This document shows positions 38,037 through 44,363 of a stretch of DNA of 64,000 bases, in pieces. Under the pieces are notes generated by a model, which saw only the letters and a program-made list of their open reading frames with translations, searched no databases and was not told where the DNA came from. The DNA is from Halobaculum gomorrense (GTDB lineage Archaea; Halobacteriota; Halobacteria; Halobacteriales; Haloferacaceae): the NCBI RefSeq assembly GCF_900129775.1, contig NZ_FQWV01000002.1:186001-250000 (forward strand), read 5' to 3'. Position numbers and translations under genes: made by a program. Each line of letters starts with the position of its first letter. Within the stretch, counting starts at the first letter, position 1.

Positions 38037-38414
38037 ATGCCGAGAGAGCAGAAGCAGGTCCGCGAACTGCAAGAGGGGAGCTACGTCATGATGGAGGACT
38101 CTCCCTGCAAGATCAACGCCTACAGCACCGCCAAACCCGGCAAGCACGGCAGTGCGAAGGCTCGCATCGAGGGCAAGGGCGTGTTCGACGACAAGAAGCG
38201 CTCGCTCTCCCAGCCCGTCGACGCGAAGGTCTGGGTCCCGATCATCCAGCGAAAGCAGGGGCAGGTCGTCTCCATCTCCGGCGAGGACGCGCAGGTCATG
38301 GACCTCGACACCTACGAGACGTTCACGATGCGCGTCCCCGAGGGCGAGGACTTCACGCCCGACCAGAACATCGAGTACCTCGAGTACGAGGGACAGCGGA
38401 AAGTCGTCGGATAG
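38037..38414 (+). CDS. Translation initiation factor aIF5A
   Basis: The 125-residue protein is a full-length archaeal IF5A, with the modification loop [13 protein letters not shown] in which Lys36 becomes deoxyhypusine or hypusine. IF5A relieves ribosome stalling. It precedes an agmatinase by four bases, and deoxyhypusine synthase is 5 kb downstream, so the gene sits with its modification machinery. Confidence 0.95.
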
Positions 38415-38418
38415 TTCC

Positions 38419-39291
38419 ATGCGGTTCCCCGGCGCGTCCGTCGATCGCGACGAGGCGGCGTACGTCCTCACGGGCGCCCCGCTCGACGCGACGACGACGT
38501 TCCAGCCGGGGACCCGCTTCGGACCCGACAGGGTCCGAAAGTTCGCTTCCACCTACGACGACTACGACCGACGAACCGACTCGTTCTTCTCCGATCTCCG
38601 CGTCCACGACGCGGGCGACGTGCCCGCGTGGGACGCACTCGACGAATACCTGGATCACCTGACTGCCGAACTGCGCTCGGCCGTCATCAACGATGCCGTC
38701 CCGCTCCTCCTGGGAGGCGAGCACACCGTCACCTGGGCGGGCGTGCGCGCGACCGACCCTGACGTGCTCGTCACGGTCGACGCGCACCTCGATCTCCGCG
38801 ACGCCTACGACGGCAACCCGCTGAACCACGCCTGTGTCGTCCGGCGCTGTCTCGACGGATACGACGCCGACGATGGCTCGGGAGGCGACTACCCCACCGT
38901 CGACGAGGTCGTGGTCCTCGGCGCGCGAACCGGCTCCCCGGAGGAGTGGGAGCGCGCGGACGCGCCCGACGTGACCGTCGTCGCGCCCGAGGACGTGACC
39001 GACTGGACGGGCGAGTTCGACGGGTTCGACGGCCGCGACGCGTACCTCTCGATCGACATCGACGGCGCCGACCCCGGCTTTGCGCCCGGAACCGGGACGA
39101 TGGAGCCGTTCGGGCTCTCCCCGCGGGAAATGCGCGACGCCGTGCGCGCGGTCGCGCCCCACTGCGTCGGCGTCGATGCGGTGGAGGTGAACGACCGCGA
39201 CGACGGACAGGCGGCGGCGCTGGCCGGGAAGCTGCTGCGCGAGGCGGTGTACAGCCACGCCGACGCTGCGGCGCCCGCGGACGCGAACTGA
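38419..39291 (+). CDS. speB: Agmatinase / ureohydrolase family
   Basis: The 290-residue protein has the binuclear manganese site of the family: GGEHTVTW, VDAHLDLRD and SIDIDGADP. Agmatinases convert agmatine to putrescine and urea. In haloarchaea a homologue takes part in making the deoxyhypusine of IF5A from an aminopropyl-agmatine intermediate (from the literature as I recall it), and the start lies only four bases after the aIF5A stop, which agrees with that role. Confidence 0.88.
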   Translation: MRFPGASVDRDEAAYVLTGAPLDATTTFQPGTRFGPDRVRKFASTYDDYDRRTDSFFSDLRVHDAGDVPAWDALDEYLDHLTAELRSAVINDAVPLLLGGEHTVTWAGVRATDPDVLVTVDAHLDLRDAYDGNPLNHACVVRRCLDGYDADDGSGGDYPTVDEVVVLGARTGSPEEWERADAPDVTVVAPEDVTDWTGEFDGFDGRDAYLSIDIDGADPGFAPGTGTMEPFGLSPREMRDAVRAVAPHCVGVDAVEVNDRDDGQAAALAGKLLREAVYSHADAAAPADAN

Positions 39292-39367
39292 CTGCTCCTC
39301 GCGGTTCCGGACCGACCCATATTGCCGACGCGGTGGCTACAAACGGTCGCCGCCCGTCCGGCCGGAC

Positions 39368-40135
39368 ATGCAGCGCTCGGAGTTCGTCGATCGACTCGAC
39401 GCAGAACTGGACACCGACGCGTACGCCGACCTCGACGCCTCACCCAACGGCCTCCAGGTCGGGTCGCGCGCCGGAGAGATCGGGACCGTTGCGTTCGCCG
39501 TCGACGCCGTCGCGGCGACCGCGGAGGCCGCCGTCGATCTGGGCGCCGACGCGCTCGTCACCCACCACGGGCTGATCTGGGGCGGCCTCGACCGGGTGAC
39601 CGGCCGCGAGTACGACCGCATCGAGCCGCTCGTCGCGAACGACATCGCGCTGTACGTCTCGCACCTCCCGCTCGACGGCCACCAGGCGGTGGGGAACGCC
39701 GCCGGCGTCGCCGACGTGCTCGGGCTCGTCGACCGCGAGCCGTTCGGCGAGATAGGGCCGGAGTGCGTCGGCCAGCGCGGGGTCGCCCCCGACGGCTACG
39801 CCGCCGACGAGCTCGTCGGGACGCTGGAGGCGGCCCTGGATCACGGCGGCGAGGGGGTGCAGGTGCTCGACTGCGGGCCCGAGGAGATCGAGACTGTCGG
39901 GATCGTCACGGGCAGCGGGAGCGACTGGCTCCGCGAGGCCGAGGAGCTGGGCCTCGACGCGCTCGTCACTGGCGAGGGGAAGGGGAAGGCGTACCACGAG
40001 GCGCGCGAGGCCGGCGTCTCGGTGTTCCTCGCGGGCCACTACGCCACCGAGACGTTCGGCGTTCGTGCGCTCCAGCGCCTCGTCGACGACTGGGGGCTGG
40101 AGACGCACTACGTCGACCACCCCACCGGGCTGTAG
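39368..40135 (+). CDS. Nif3-like dinuclear metal-centre protein
   Basis: The 255-residue protein has the conserved metal-site motifs of the NIF3/YbgI family (THHGLIWGG, SHLPLDGHQAVGN, GHYATETFG). It is shorter than bacterial forms and lacks the inserted domain. The family is widespread, and some members act as GTP cyclohydrolase-like or metal-binding proteins. The true substrate is unknown. Confidence 0.85.
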   Translation: MQRSEFVDRLDAELDTDAYADLDASPNGLQVGSRAGEIGTVAFAVDAVAATAEAAVDLGADALVTHHGLIWGGLDRVTGREYDRIEPLVANDIALYVSHLPLDGHQAVGNAAGVADVLGLVDREPFGEIGPECVGQRGVAPDGYAADELVGTLEAALDHGGEGVQVLDCGPEEIETVGIVTGSGSDWLREAEELGLDALVTGEGKGKAYHEAREAGVSVFLAGHYATETFGVRALQRLVDDWGLETHYVDHPTGL

Positions 40136-40220
40136 CGACCTGCGCGTCGCGCTCGCGTAATATTCGAGGTTGATACTCAGAGACGCGCTTTCTTGAGTGT
40201 CTCACGTGAGTCTGTGTCCG
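40136..40220 (+). promoter_or_regulatory. Promoter region of the transducer-rhodopsin operon with a CTCACGTGAG palindrome
   Basis: The region contains a GCGTAATATTCG stretch (about 40158-40169) that is a candidate TATA box and the perfect 10-base palindrome CTCACGTGAG at 40201-40210, which ends 10 bases before the start codon. It may be an operator; no binder is known. Confidence 0.45.
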
Positions 40221-42482
40221 ATGCAATTCACAACCGTCTGGGGCTGGCTGGTCCCGGACTGGCTTCGCCGGCGCTACGCGGCGAAGCTGACGGTGGCGTT
40301 GCTGGTGGTCGTGGTGCTCACGGTCGCGTTCGGCGCGGTCGTGCAGGCGCAGATGAACGCCCTACTGCGACAGGACGTGGACGAAGAGCTCTCGACGACT
40401 GCGTCCGTGCGCGCGGACACGCTCGACACGTGGCTCAGCGGCGTCAAGAAACAGACCGTGTTGACTTCGCGCCACCCCGACATGGCGTCTGGCGACCTCG
40501 GCCGGGTGAACGACCACCTGGCGACGATACAAGCCAGCGGGGCGCTCCCGGCGGGCGTCGCGGCGGTCCACTACTACGACACGGCCGACAAGCGGATCGT
40601 CGCGTCGACGAGCGACAAGCTCGTCGGCGTGAGTCCCGCCGAGCAGGGCGCGCCGTTCGCGACGAACCCGCCGACGTTCGACGGCGTCGACGACACGTAC
40701 GTGACGAAGCCGTTCGAGGTTGCGGTCGTCGACCACCCGGTCGTCGCCGTCGTCTCGCCGGTTGCGGGCGCCGAGAACCGGGCGGTCGTGTACATGCTCA
40801 ACATCAAGACGTACTCCGCCGCGCTCGCGGGCACCTCCGGAACTGAGACGCTCGTCGTCGACGGCGACGGCGAGTACGTCGTCCACCCCGACCCGAGCCG
40901 GATCGGCGAGGCGTTCCCCGCCGCCGACGCGCTGCTCGGCGACACCGACCTCCTCCAGCGCGACGACGCCGTGATGGCGTCGGCGTCGCTCTCGGAGACC
41001 GACTGGACGGTCGTGACGCGGACGCCGACGGCGCAGGCGTACGCGCTCGGCCACAGCGTCGCCTCGAACGTCATCGGCCTCATCTTGGTGACCGTCATCG
41101 GACTGGCGGTCGTGGGCGTCACCATCGGGTCGAACACGGTCATCTCGCTGCGGCGCGTCGCCGACAAGGCCGACGCGATGGCCGGCGGCGACCTCGACGT
41201 GGAGATGACGACCGCCCGCGAGGACGAACTCGGGCGCGTCGTCGCGTCGTTCGACACGATGCGCAACTCGCTGCGCTCGACCATCGCCGACGCCGAGGCC
41301 GCCCGTGCGGAGGCGGAGGCGGCGCAGGCGCGCGCCCAGGAGACCGCAGCGGATCTGGAGGAGACGGCCGACGAGTACGGCGCGGTGATGCGGTCGGTCG
41401 CGGACGGCGACCTCACCCGCCGGGTCGACCCCGACGCCGACAGCGAGGCGATGCGCGCGGTCGGCGACGCGTTCAACGAGATGGTGTCGGCGATCGAAGA
41501 CACCCTCGCCGACGTGAAGCGCTTCTCCGGCCACGTCGTCGACGAGGCGGAGACGGCCGACGAGAACGCCGCCGAGGTGCGCGAGGCGAGCGAGTCCGTC
41601 GCCGTCTCGGTCGACGAGATAGCGGCCGGCGCGGACGAGCAGTCTCGCCATCTCCACACCGTCGAATCGGAGATGGCTGACCTCTCTGCGTCCGCCGAGG
41701 AGGTCGCCGCGACCGTGGTGTCCGTGTCGGAGACGGCCAGTCGCGCCGCCGCCGCGGGCGACGCGGGTCAAGAGACCGCCGAGGAGGCGCTCGACGAGAT
41801 GGATGCTGTCCGCGAGCGGACGGCCAAGACGATGAGCGAGCTGGATGCGCTCGACGAGGAGGTCGAAGAGATCGGAGAGATCGCCGAGGTGATCGGCGAC
41901 ATCGCCGAGCAGACGAACCTGCTGGCGCTCAACGCCTCCATCGAGGCCGCCCGAACCGGCGCAGAGGGCGACGGCTTCGCCGTCGTCGCCGACGAGGTGA
42001 AGTCGCTCGCAGAGGAGACGAAGGAGTCGGCCGAGGCCGTCGAGGCGCGCATCGACCGCGTCCAGACGCGCACCGGCGAGACGGTCGAGGGGATGCGCGC
42101 GACCGACGACCGCGTCCGCGCGGGCGTCGAGACGGTCGAGGGCGCTATCGAGTCGCTGTCGACGGTCGCGGGCCACGTCGACGGCATCGACGACGACCTG
42201 AGCGAGATCGAACGCGTGACCGGCCAACAAGCCGAGGCCGTCGAGTCCGTCGTCGAGACGGCAGAGGAGGTCGCCGCCATCGGCGACCAGACGACCGCCG
42301 AGGCGGAGCGGGCCGCCGCCGCGACCGACCAGCAGACCGCCGCCATCTCCGACGTCGACGCCGCCGCGACCGACCTGGCCGCGCGCGCGAGACGGCTCCG
42401 AGGATTGCTCACGGAGTTCGACGTCGCCAGGGATGCGACACTCGATGCGAGTACTCGCGGCGTCGTGGAGGCCGACGACTGA
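40221..42482 (+). CDS. Methyl-accepting phototaxis transducer (Htr type) with extracellular sensor domain
   Basis: The 753-residue protein has two membrane helices (about 22-43 and 282-303) around a large extracellular domain (44-281) with the YVVHPDP segment typical of Cache sensors, then two HAMP units (VADKADAMAGGDLDVEM and VADGDLTRRVDPDADSEAM) and a signalling domain whose tip reads IGDIAEQTNLLALNASIEAA. Its stop overlaps the ATG of the rhodopsin gene (TGATG), the arrangement of htr-sop pairs, so it relays light signals to CheA. An extracellular sensor is like H. salinarum HtrII rather than HtrI. It may also sense a chemical. The ATG at 40221 gives the best N-terminus; a start at 40197 is possible. 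Confidence 0.88.
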   Translation: MQFTTVWGWLVPDWLRRRYAAKLTVALLVVVVLTVAFGAVVQAQMNALLRQDVDEELSTTASVRADTLDTWLSGVKKQTVLTSRHPDMASGDLGRVNDHLATIQASGALPAGVAAVHYYDTADKRIVASTSDKLVGVSPAEQGAPFATNPPTFDGVDDTYVTKPFEVAVVDHPVVAVVSPVAGAENRAVVYMLNIKTYSAALAGTSGTETLVVDGDGEYVVHPDPSRIGEAFPAADALLGDTDLLQRDDAVMASASLSETDWTVVTRTPTAQAYALGHSVASNVIGLILVTVIGLAVVGVTIGSNTVISLRRVADKADAMAGGDLDVEMTTAREDELGRVVASFDTMRNSLRSTIADAEAARAEAEAAQARAQETAADLEETADEYGAVMRSVADGDLTRRVDPDADSEAMRAVGDAFNEMVSAIEDTLADVKRFSGHVVDEAETADENAAEVREASESVAVSVDEIAAGADEQSRHLHTVESEMADLSASAEEVAATVVSVSETASRAAAAGDAGQETAEEALDEMDAVRERTAKTMSELDALDEEVEEIGEIAEVIGDIAEQTNLLALNASIEAARTGAEGDGFAVVADEVKSLAEETKESAEAVEARIDRVQTRTGETVEGMRATDDRVRAGVETVEGAIESLSTVAGHVDGIDDDLSEIERVTGQQAEAVESVVETAEEVAAIGDQTTAEAERAAAATDQQTAAISDVDAAATDLAARARRLRGLLTEFDVARDATLDASTRGVVEADD

Positions 42483-43213
42483 TGATCGAGTTCACCAAGA
42501 CGCTGTGGCTGACGCTCGGGTTCGCGGGGATGGCGCTCGGGACGGTGCCGCCGCTGTGGCAACTGCTCGTCGACGCCGAGCGACGCACACACTACCTCGT
42601 GCTCGCGGGCATCACGGGCGTCGCCGCCGTCGCGTACGCCGGGATGGCGCTCGAAATCGGGACGCTGTCCGTGGACGGGCGGCCGCTGTACACGCTGCGG
42701 TACGCCGACTGGTTCTTGACGACGCTGCTGCTGGTCGGCTACCTCTGGCTGTTGACGGGGGCCGGCCGACGCGCTCTCGTGCGCGTGCTCGCACTGGACG
42801 CGGCGGTCATCCTGCTCGGCGTCGGAGCCGTCGTGTTGCCCGACCCGTTGCGGTTCGTCGTGTTCACGGCCGGCGGAGTGGCGTTCCTCGCCCTCGCTCG
42901 CGACCTCGTGGTGACGCTTCCGGCGCGGGCGACGGCGACCGACGCTCGCCGGGTCGCCACGTTCGAGAAACTCCGCAACCTCACGGTCGTGTTGTGGACG
43001 CTGTACCCCGTCGTCTGGCTGCTCGGCCCCGCCGGCCTCGGACTGCTCGTGCCGGCGACGGAGGTGCTGGTGTTCGTCTACCTCGACGTCGTCGCGAAAG
43101 CCGGCTTCGTCGTCATCGCGGTCAACTGGCTCGCCGGCACGACCGGTTCTGCTGAGGGCGTCGACGCCGGTTCGGAGGAGGAACAGGAGTCGGTCGTCGT
43201 CTCGGCCGACTGA
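42482..43213 (+). CDS. Sensory rhodopsin (microbial rhodopsin, SRI-like with SRII features)
   Basis: The 243-residue protein has seven helices with the retinal Lys206 in LDVVAKAG, the counterion Asp76 in RYADWFLTT, and helix F with LWTLYPVVWL. Tyr87 and Asp106 fit SRI numbering, and there is no proton donor at the BR Asp96 position, so it is a sensor and not a pump. It differs from SRI by having Leu166-type residue (RNLTVV) where SRI has the functional His, and from nearly all relatives by Leu82 in place of the helix C proline. It is cotranscribed with the transducer through a one-base overlap. The photocycle and colour are not predictable. Confidence 0.9.
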   Translation: MIEFTKTLWLTLGFAGMALGTVPPLWQLLVDAERRTHYLVLAGITGVAAVAYAGMALEIGTLSVDGRPLYTLRYADWFLTTLLLVGYLWLLTGAGRRALVRVLALDAAVILLGVGAVVLPDPLRFVVFTAGGVAFLALARDLVVTLPARATATDARRVATFEKLRNLTVVLWTLYPVVWLLGPAGLGLLVPATEVLVFVYLDVVAKAGFVVIAVNWLAGTTGSAEGVDAGSEEEQESVVVSAD

Positions 43214-43295
43214 ACCGGCTCGTTCTCGAACTCCTCCGGGCGCGGCGTGGCCCAGAACCACGCGGTTCAAGCGCCCCGCCGCCGCAGCCACGCCC

Positions 43296-44363
43296 ATGAG
43301 CGACGAGGGTCACGACGACCACGCGGACGACACAGACCACGACGCGGACGGGTACGAGACGCCCCACCGCGAGGCGTTCGACCACGACCCGCTCGGACAC
43401 GCGCGGGTCCGGGGCGGCATGACCGTCGGCGAACTGGTCGAGCAGTACGGCCACGCCGGCATCGGGGCGGAGTCGGTCCACGGCGCCGCGGACGTGCTCG
43501 CGGAGATGTGGGCTGACGACGACTGCACCGTGTTCGTCTCGCTGGCGGGCGCGATGGTGCCGACCGGGATGCGGCGGATCGTCGCGGACCTCATCCGCGA
43601 CGGCTACGTCGACGCGCTCGTAACGACGGGGGCGAACCTCACCCACGACGCGATCGAAGCGATCGGCGGGAAGCACCATCACGGAGCAGAACGGCAGGAG
43701 GGGAAGACGTTGCGGGAGCACGACGAGCAGTTGCGCGACGAGGAGGTCGACCGCATCTACAACGTCTACCTCCCGCAAGAGCACTTCGCGGCGTTTGAGG
43801 CGCACCTCCGCGAGGAGGTGTTCCCGCCGCTGGCCGAGCGCGACGGCGCGGTCTCTATCGCCGAGCTGTGTGCGGAACTGGGCCGCGCGAACGCCGACGT
43901 GAACGACCGTGATGGGATCGCCGAGGATCCCGGGGTCGCGGCCGCGGCCTACGAACACGACGTGCCGGTGTACTGCCCCGCAGTGCAAGACTCCGTGTTC
44001 GGGTTACAGGCGTGGATGTACAGCCAAACCTCCGACCTGACGCTCGACGCGCTCGCGGACATGACGCCGCTGACGGACCAGGCGTTCGAGGCGGACACCG
44101 CGGGCTGTCTGCTGATCGGCGGCGGCGTCCCGAAGAATTTCACCCTCCAGACGATGCTCGTAACGCCGCGCGCGTACGACTACGCTGTCCAGATCACGAT
44201 GGACCCCGAAGCGACCGGCGGCCTGTCGGGGGCGACGCTGGAGGAGGCCCGCTCGTGGGGGAAGCTAGAGCGGGACGCGGAGAACGCCTCCGTCTACGGG
44301 GACGCGACGGTGTTCCTGCCGCTGTTGGTCGCGGCGGCGCGCGAACGGGTCGAAGCCGAGTAG
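43296..44363 (+). CDS. dys: Deoxyhypusine synthase
   Basis: Deoxyhypusine synthase transfers an aminobutyl group to the aIF5A lysine. The 355-residue protein has an acidic His-rich N-terminal extension, then VSLAGAMVPTGMRRIV, TTGANLTHD, the VYCPAVQDS region and the catalytic Lys in LLIGGGVPKNF. It lies 5 kb from aIF5A and agmatinase. The start at 43296 gives the extension; a start at an internal ATG would be less conserved. Confidence 0.92.
   Translation: MSDEGHDDHADDTDHDADGYETPHREAFDHDPLGHARVRGGMTVGELVEQYGHAGIGAESVHGAADVLAEMWADDDCTVFVSLAGAMVPTGMRRIVADLIRDGYVDALVTTGANLTHDAIEAIGGKHHHGAERQEGKTLREHDEQLRDEEVDRIYNVYLPQEHFAAFEAHLREEVFPPLAERDGAVSIAELCAELGRANADVNDRDGIAEDPGVAAAAYEHDVPVYCPAVQDSVFGLQAWMYSQTSDLTLDALADMTPLTDQAFEADTAGCLLIGGGVPKNFTLQTMLVTPRAYDYAVQITMDPEATGGLSGATLEEARSWGKLERDAENASVYGDATVFLPLLVAAARERVEAE

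Follow-up and report, generated by a model that had tools for sequence, protein, structure and literature searches.

The SRII-HtrII pairs of H. salinarum and N. pharaonis are the closest described relatives of the locus presented here. A review describes HtrII of H. salinarum both as a phototransducer and as a serine chemoreceptor (PMC3274258, citing Hou et al. 1998). The light relay of SRII runs through Thr204 and Tyr174, and mutation of either residue in the N. pharaonis protein (NpSRII) disrupts negative phototaxis (PMC3274258). A further pair, SRM-HtrM of Haloarcula, has its transducer downstream of the rhodopsin and without an MCP domain (PMC6450946), while amino-acid sensors of the dCache_1AA type carry the motif [YFWL]xxx(x)[RK]xW[YFW]..[YFW]..D (PMC11237719). 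Here, we analyse a transducer-rhodopsin gene pair in a stretch of 64,000 nucleotides from Halobaculum gomorrense (contig NZ_FQWV01000002.1, positions 186,001 to 250,000; hereafter the window). The original prediction saw in it an SRI-like rhodopsin joined to a transducer with a Cache-like extracellular domain; the anatomy was sound and the SRI label mistaken, for we find nothing more unusual than another SRII-HtrII pair of the known type.

The gene pair and its surroundings

The transducer has the hallmarks of HtrII, namely two TM helices, a HAMP domain and an MCP signalling domain. Its start was placed at the ATG at 40221, with an alternative in-frame GTG at 40197 that gives 761 aa, and its ORF overlaps that of the rhodopsin by one base (TGATG). 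The features, all on the + strand of the window, are as follows.

40221..42482 (+): htrII-type phototaxis/chemotaxis transducer, ORF of 753 aa plus stop with MCPsignal, HAMP and weak dCache_1 matches
40287..40343 (+): TM1, transducer residues 23-41, from hydropathy and a weak phmmer pairing with NpHtrII TM1 (PDB 2f93_B)
40350..41063 (+): extracellular dCache domain, residues 44-281 (Pfam dCache_1 E 2.4e-07 and 1.7e-08 in two scans; AlphaFold2; Foldseek)
41070..41126 (+): TM2, residues 284-302, from hydropathy and a weak phmmer pairing with NpHtrII TM2
41148..41276 (+): HAMP domain, residues 310-352 (Pfam PF00672, 1.9e-13)
41760..42278 (+): MCP signalling domain, residues 514-686, with the conserved tip EQTNLLALNASIEAAR, from sequence and Pfam PF00015 (MCPsignal, 1.8e-38)
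42482..43213 (+): sopII-type sensory rhodopsin II, 243 aa plus stop (Pfam Bac_rhodopsin, 6.7e-45)
42707..42709 (+): Asp76, the counterion, equivalent to NpSRII Asp75 (alignment)
43094..43096 (+): Ala205, at the position of NpSRII Thr204 (alignment)
43097..43099 (+): Lys206, the retinal Schiff-base lysine, equivalent to NpSRII Lys205 (alignment)

By hydropathy, about 242 residues lie between TM1 and TM2, in keeping with the two-TM transducer with about 240 extracellular residues that had been predicted. The comparison locus L141, which we take to be of H. salinarum type, carries a rhodopsin identical to the H. salinarum SRII sequence that we used as a label, and its genome also holds an SRI. 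The sequences of H. salinarum SRI and bacteriorhodopsin served as further labels, and those of NpSRII were taken from PDB entries.

The window, four loci of its genus, further members of its family and L141 all show the gene order Nif3-htrII-sopII. Deoxyhypusine synthase follows the pair in the window and in many other loci, whereas in L141 a search of about 3 kb did not turn it up. The neighbouring genes were also examined with Pfam. Both flanks are kept across several genera, and in the window the stretch from 38037 to 44363 places htrII-sopII amid eIF5A, an arginase-family (agmatinase-like) gene, Nif3 and deoxyhypusine synthase, a polyamine/hypusine group. A transducer on the same strand lies immediately upstream of almost every SRII gene sampled, the one in the window included, where the one-base overlap points to a single transcription unit. 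We considered and rejected a kinship with SRM-HtrM, as the window transducer lies upstream of its rhodopsin and is complete.

Elsewhere in the genome of the window, locus L095 on another contig holds an SRI-clade rhodopsin together with a hairpin transducer without an ectodomain. The genome further contains a bacteriorhodopsin-like gene (L096), several archaellin genes, CheW and a CheA-like frame. With an SRII pair, an SRI-clade pair, CheW, the CheA-like frame and archaellins, the genome is therefore equipped like that of H. salinarum for two-colour phototaxis. The SRI-clade rhodopsin of this second pair (L095:4035-4808, contig C12) is divergent and, by inspection, has Phe in place of SRI His166.

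Affiliation of the rhodopsin and distribution of the architecture

The window rhodopsin scored 268 bits with a profile built from 76 SRII rows, from which the genus of the window had been left out, versus 154 bits with a profile of 20 SRI rows; bacteriorhodopsin controls reached 179-181 bits with the SRII profile. In a tree of 96 rows, it falls in a clade of 39 rows (support 100/99), the smallest well-supported large clade containing it, which includes H. salinarum SRII, while the SRI rows lie outside as a separate group. It is 41.8% identical to the H. salinarum-type SRII and 41.9% identical to NpSRII, versus 29.9-38.9% for 18 SRI-clade sequences, and its nearest solved structures are those of NpSRII (41% identity). 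By alignment, the equivalents of Arg72, Trp76, Tyr174, the counterion Asp and the Schiff-base Lys are all present. Differences from NpSRII include Ala for Thr204 and Asp for Asn105.

The SRI-like label is thus contradicted by profile score, tree, identity and synteny alike, and we reject an SRI assignment. Since the rhodopsin is an SRII, the supposed mismatch between an SRI and an HtrII-like transducer vanishes. What remains is a regular SRII-HtrII pair of the kind known from H. salinarum, which the original prediction had named as the contrasting case. An AU test did not reject a single clade of the window's genus and SRI (lnL 12.6 lower, p 0.18), and the SRI branch is long in the rhodopsin tree; synteny settles the SRII assignment despite this non-significant result.

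An ectodomain is present in 53 of the 76 non-redundant SRII-type pairs, the remaining 23 having a short loop, which makes the architecture seen in the window the commoner form of HtrII in this sample. As the pairs were collected for their resemblance to the rhodopsin of the window, the 53:23 ratio is no census. The gap between TM1 and TM2 spans 239-258 residues where an ectodomain is present and 4-23 residues in the short loops, SRI pairs being counted among the latter. On the tree, presence and absence of the ectodomain among SRII pairs require at least four switches. The SRI-clade pairs, from about 19 genomes, showed hairpins only and no ectodomain wherever the transducer N-terminus was readable (the frame of L213 is broken and that of L199 split); H. 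salinarum HtrI has no ectodomain either. The combination, whose occurrence in many SRI systems would have counted against the original prediction, is indeed common, but in SRII and not in SRI systems. In the SRI locus L199, the HtrI frame appears to fall into two ORFs, of 344 aa and 315 aa, which may reflect a frameshift or sequencing error.

The extracellular domain and position 204

The window ectodomain scored 34.7 bits with Pfam dCache_1 (PF02743), under the curated cut-off of 45; matches at E <= 0.01 were obtained for it and for each of the six relatives that we scanned. An AlphaFold2 model of the domain, built on a seven-sequence alignment, reached a pLDDT of 87 and a pTM of 0.84, and its top Foldseek matches in the PDB were the dCache domains of the bacterial amino-acid chemoreceptors CtaA, PctA, Mlp24 and Mlp37 (E about 1e-11 to 1e-9, TM about 0.67-0.75, identity 14-19%). 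The Cache fold predicted for residues 44-281 is thus confirmed, as a double-Cache (dCache) fold, by the modelled structure and the structure search. We know of no rhodopsin partner for these four receptors. The window domain differs from theirs in being without the canonical [YFWL]x3-4[RK]xW[YFW] motif.

This amino-acid motif occurs in none of the 55 HtrII ectodomains examined, that of the window among them, and the serine ligand is therefore not simply transferable from H. salinarum. A different conserved core, HY..[ST]S..G..QGAPFA..PP.F..PF.V..D.P, is found in its place (n=55). In a class-wide search, HtrII ectodomains scored at least 139 bits versus at most 83 bits for the ectodomains of other transducers, a gap that makes the HtrII ectodomains a distinct subfamily. 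Among the papers that our literature search covered, none calls the HtrII ectodomain a Cache domain.

In the rhodopsin, the Tyr174 equivalent is kept and the Thr204 equivalent is Ala, a residue shared with SRI and bacteriorhodopsin and retained throughout the window's genus. Across the 76 transducer-linked SRIIs this position holds Ser in 27, Thr in 26 and Ala in 23, with at least seven changes on the SRII tree; because the residue varies in this way, Thr204 does not define the SRII family as sampled. The frequency of Ala204 is the one point that might be unexpected to specialists. A comparison of ectodomain loss with Thr204 yielded at most four supported independent pairs and no significance, in a run in which L119 and L145 were mislabelled; the counts and changes given above rest on the corrected labels.

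Explanations compared

The reading that we favour, at a probability of about 0.93, is that the window pair is the orthologue of H. salinarum htrII-sopII and that light and, probably, a small molecule act as inputs through HtrII. The two systems share gene order, the upstream Nif3 neighbour, a dual-input architecture and a two-TM transducer with an ectodomain of about 245 residues in H. salinarum; the transducers are 45.7% identical overall (measured against L141) and 40% in the ectodomain, and position 204 differs, with Ser there and Ala in the window. The closeness of the ectodomain fold to serine-binding Mlp37 and CtaA also speaks for this reading. NpHtrII, whose TM1 and TM2 align with those of the window transducer, has a short TM1-TM2 loop only. 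In such a pair, light would isomerise retinal on Lys206, and the rhodopsin, touching both TM helices of its HtrII, would shift TM2; HAMP would hand the change on to the signalling tip, from which it would reach CheA/CheW and the archaellum. A second input into this TM2/HAMP path would come from the dCache domain, probably for an amino-acid-like small-molecule attractant. By homology, we infer sensitivity to blue to blue-green light, a repellent sign, complex formation and a chemical ligand. The dual light and chemical role proposed at the outset is plausible, and a 1998 study is reported to have shown the same duality in H. salinarum HtrII (Hou et al., cited in PMC3274258). With such a transducer known since then, and being the commoner form of HtrII in our sample, the original observation matters little.

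That an SRI-type rhodopsin took on a Cache-bearing transducer of HtrII type, as first proposed, is very improbable. The window rhodopsin has Ala204 in common with H. salinarum SRI, as well as Tyr where bacteriorhodopsin has Asp96 (a Tyr found also in H. salinarum SRII), and the AU test did not reject the grouping; profile, tree, identity and synteny nevertheless all point to SRII. The SRI-HtrI pair of H. salinarum is likewise built as a rhodopsin-transducer operon and belongs to a separate clade. The window rhodopsin lacks the SRI motif VSS-x-x-H (the His166 position was located by inspection in an ungapped helix), no SRI-type transducer with a readable N-terminus bears an ectodomain, and an SRI-clade pair already exists elsewhere in the genome. 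The dCache domain could have ceased to bind a ligand and serve as a mere structural spacer beside a working rhodopsin, as its missing amino-acid motif, its repeated switching on the tree and the many SRII pairs without it, including NpHtrII, might suggest. We consider this unlikely, given that the core (HY, SS, QGAPFA, PP, PF, D-P) is strongly conserved over 55 HtrIIs, which suggests selection, and that H. salinarum HtrII is reported as a serine receptor (PMC3274258).

The opposite case, in which the chemical arm works and light signalling has weakened, vanished or switched sign, would follow from Ala at position 204, given the effect of Thr204 and Tyr174 mutations on NpSRII phototaxis noted above. 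It appears more doubtful still, since the equivalents of Tyr174, Asp75 and Lys205 are intact, Ala204 is frequent among intact pairs (23/76) and constant in the window's genus, and H. salinarum SRII itself has Ser there. Returning to the orthologue reading, we suggest tentatively, and with rather less than even confidence, that pairs with Ala204 would relay light without the Thr204-Tyr174 hydrogen bond, and that HtrII ectodomains would constitute a subfamily of dCache with a non-canonical ligand site around the QGAPFA core. If Ala204 pairs do signal, that bond is one solution and not a rule for SRII. Two facts from the comparison are of use. Presence of the ectodomain changed four times or more among SRII pairs, and Thr204 of the relay is not a general feature of them. 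Each supplies natural variants with which to study the merging of light and chemical inputs in a single transducer.

Among other haloarchaeal genomes, three loci (L146:4010-4723, L152:2952-3662 and L171:3006-3731) encode related sensory rhodopsins with Gln for the counterion Asp75 and Ala for Thr79, and in two of them Arg72 is altered as well. These rhodopsins adjoin short transducers with QKTNILAVNARIESSR or RKTNILAVNARIESSR at the signalling tip in place of EQTNLLALNASIEAAR.
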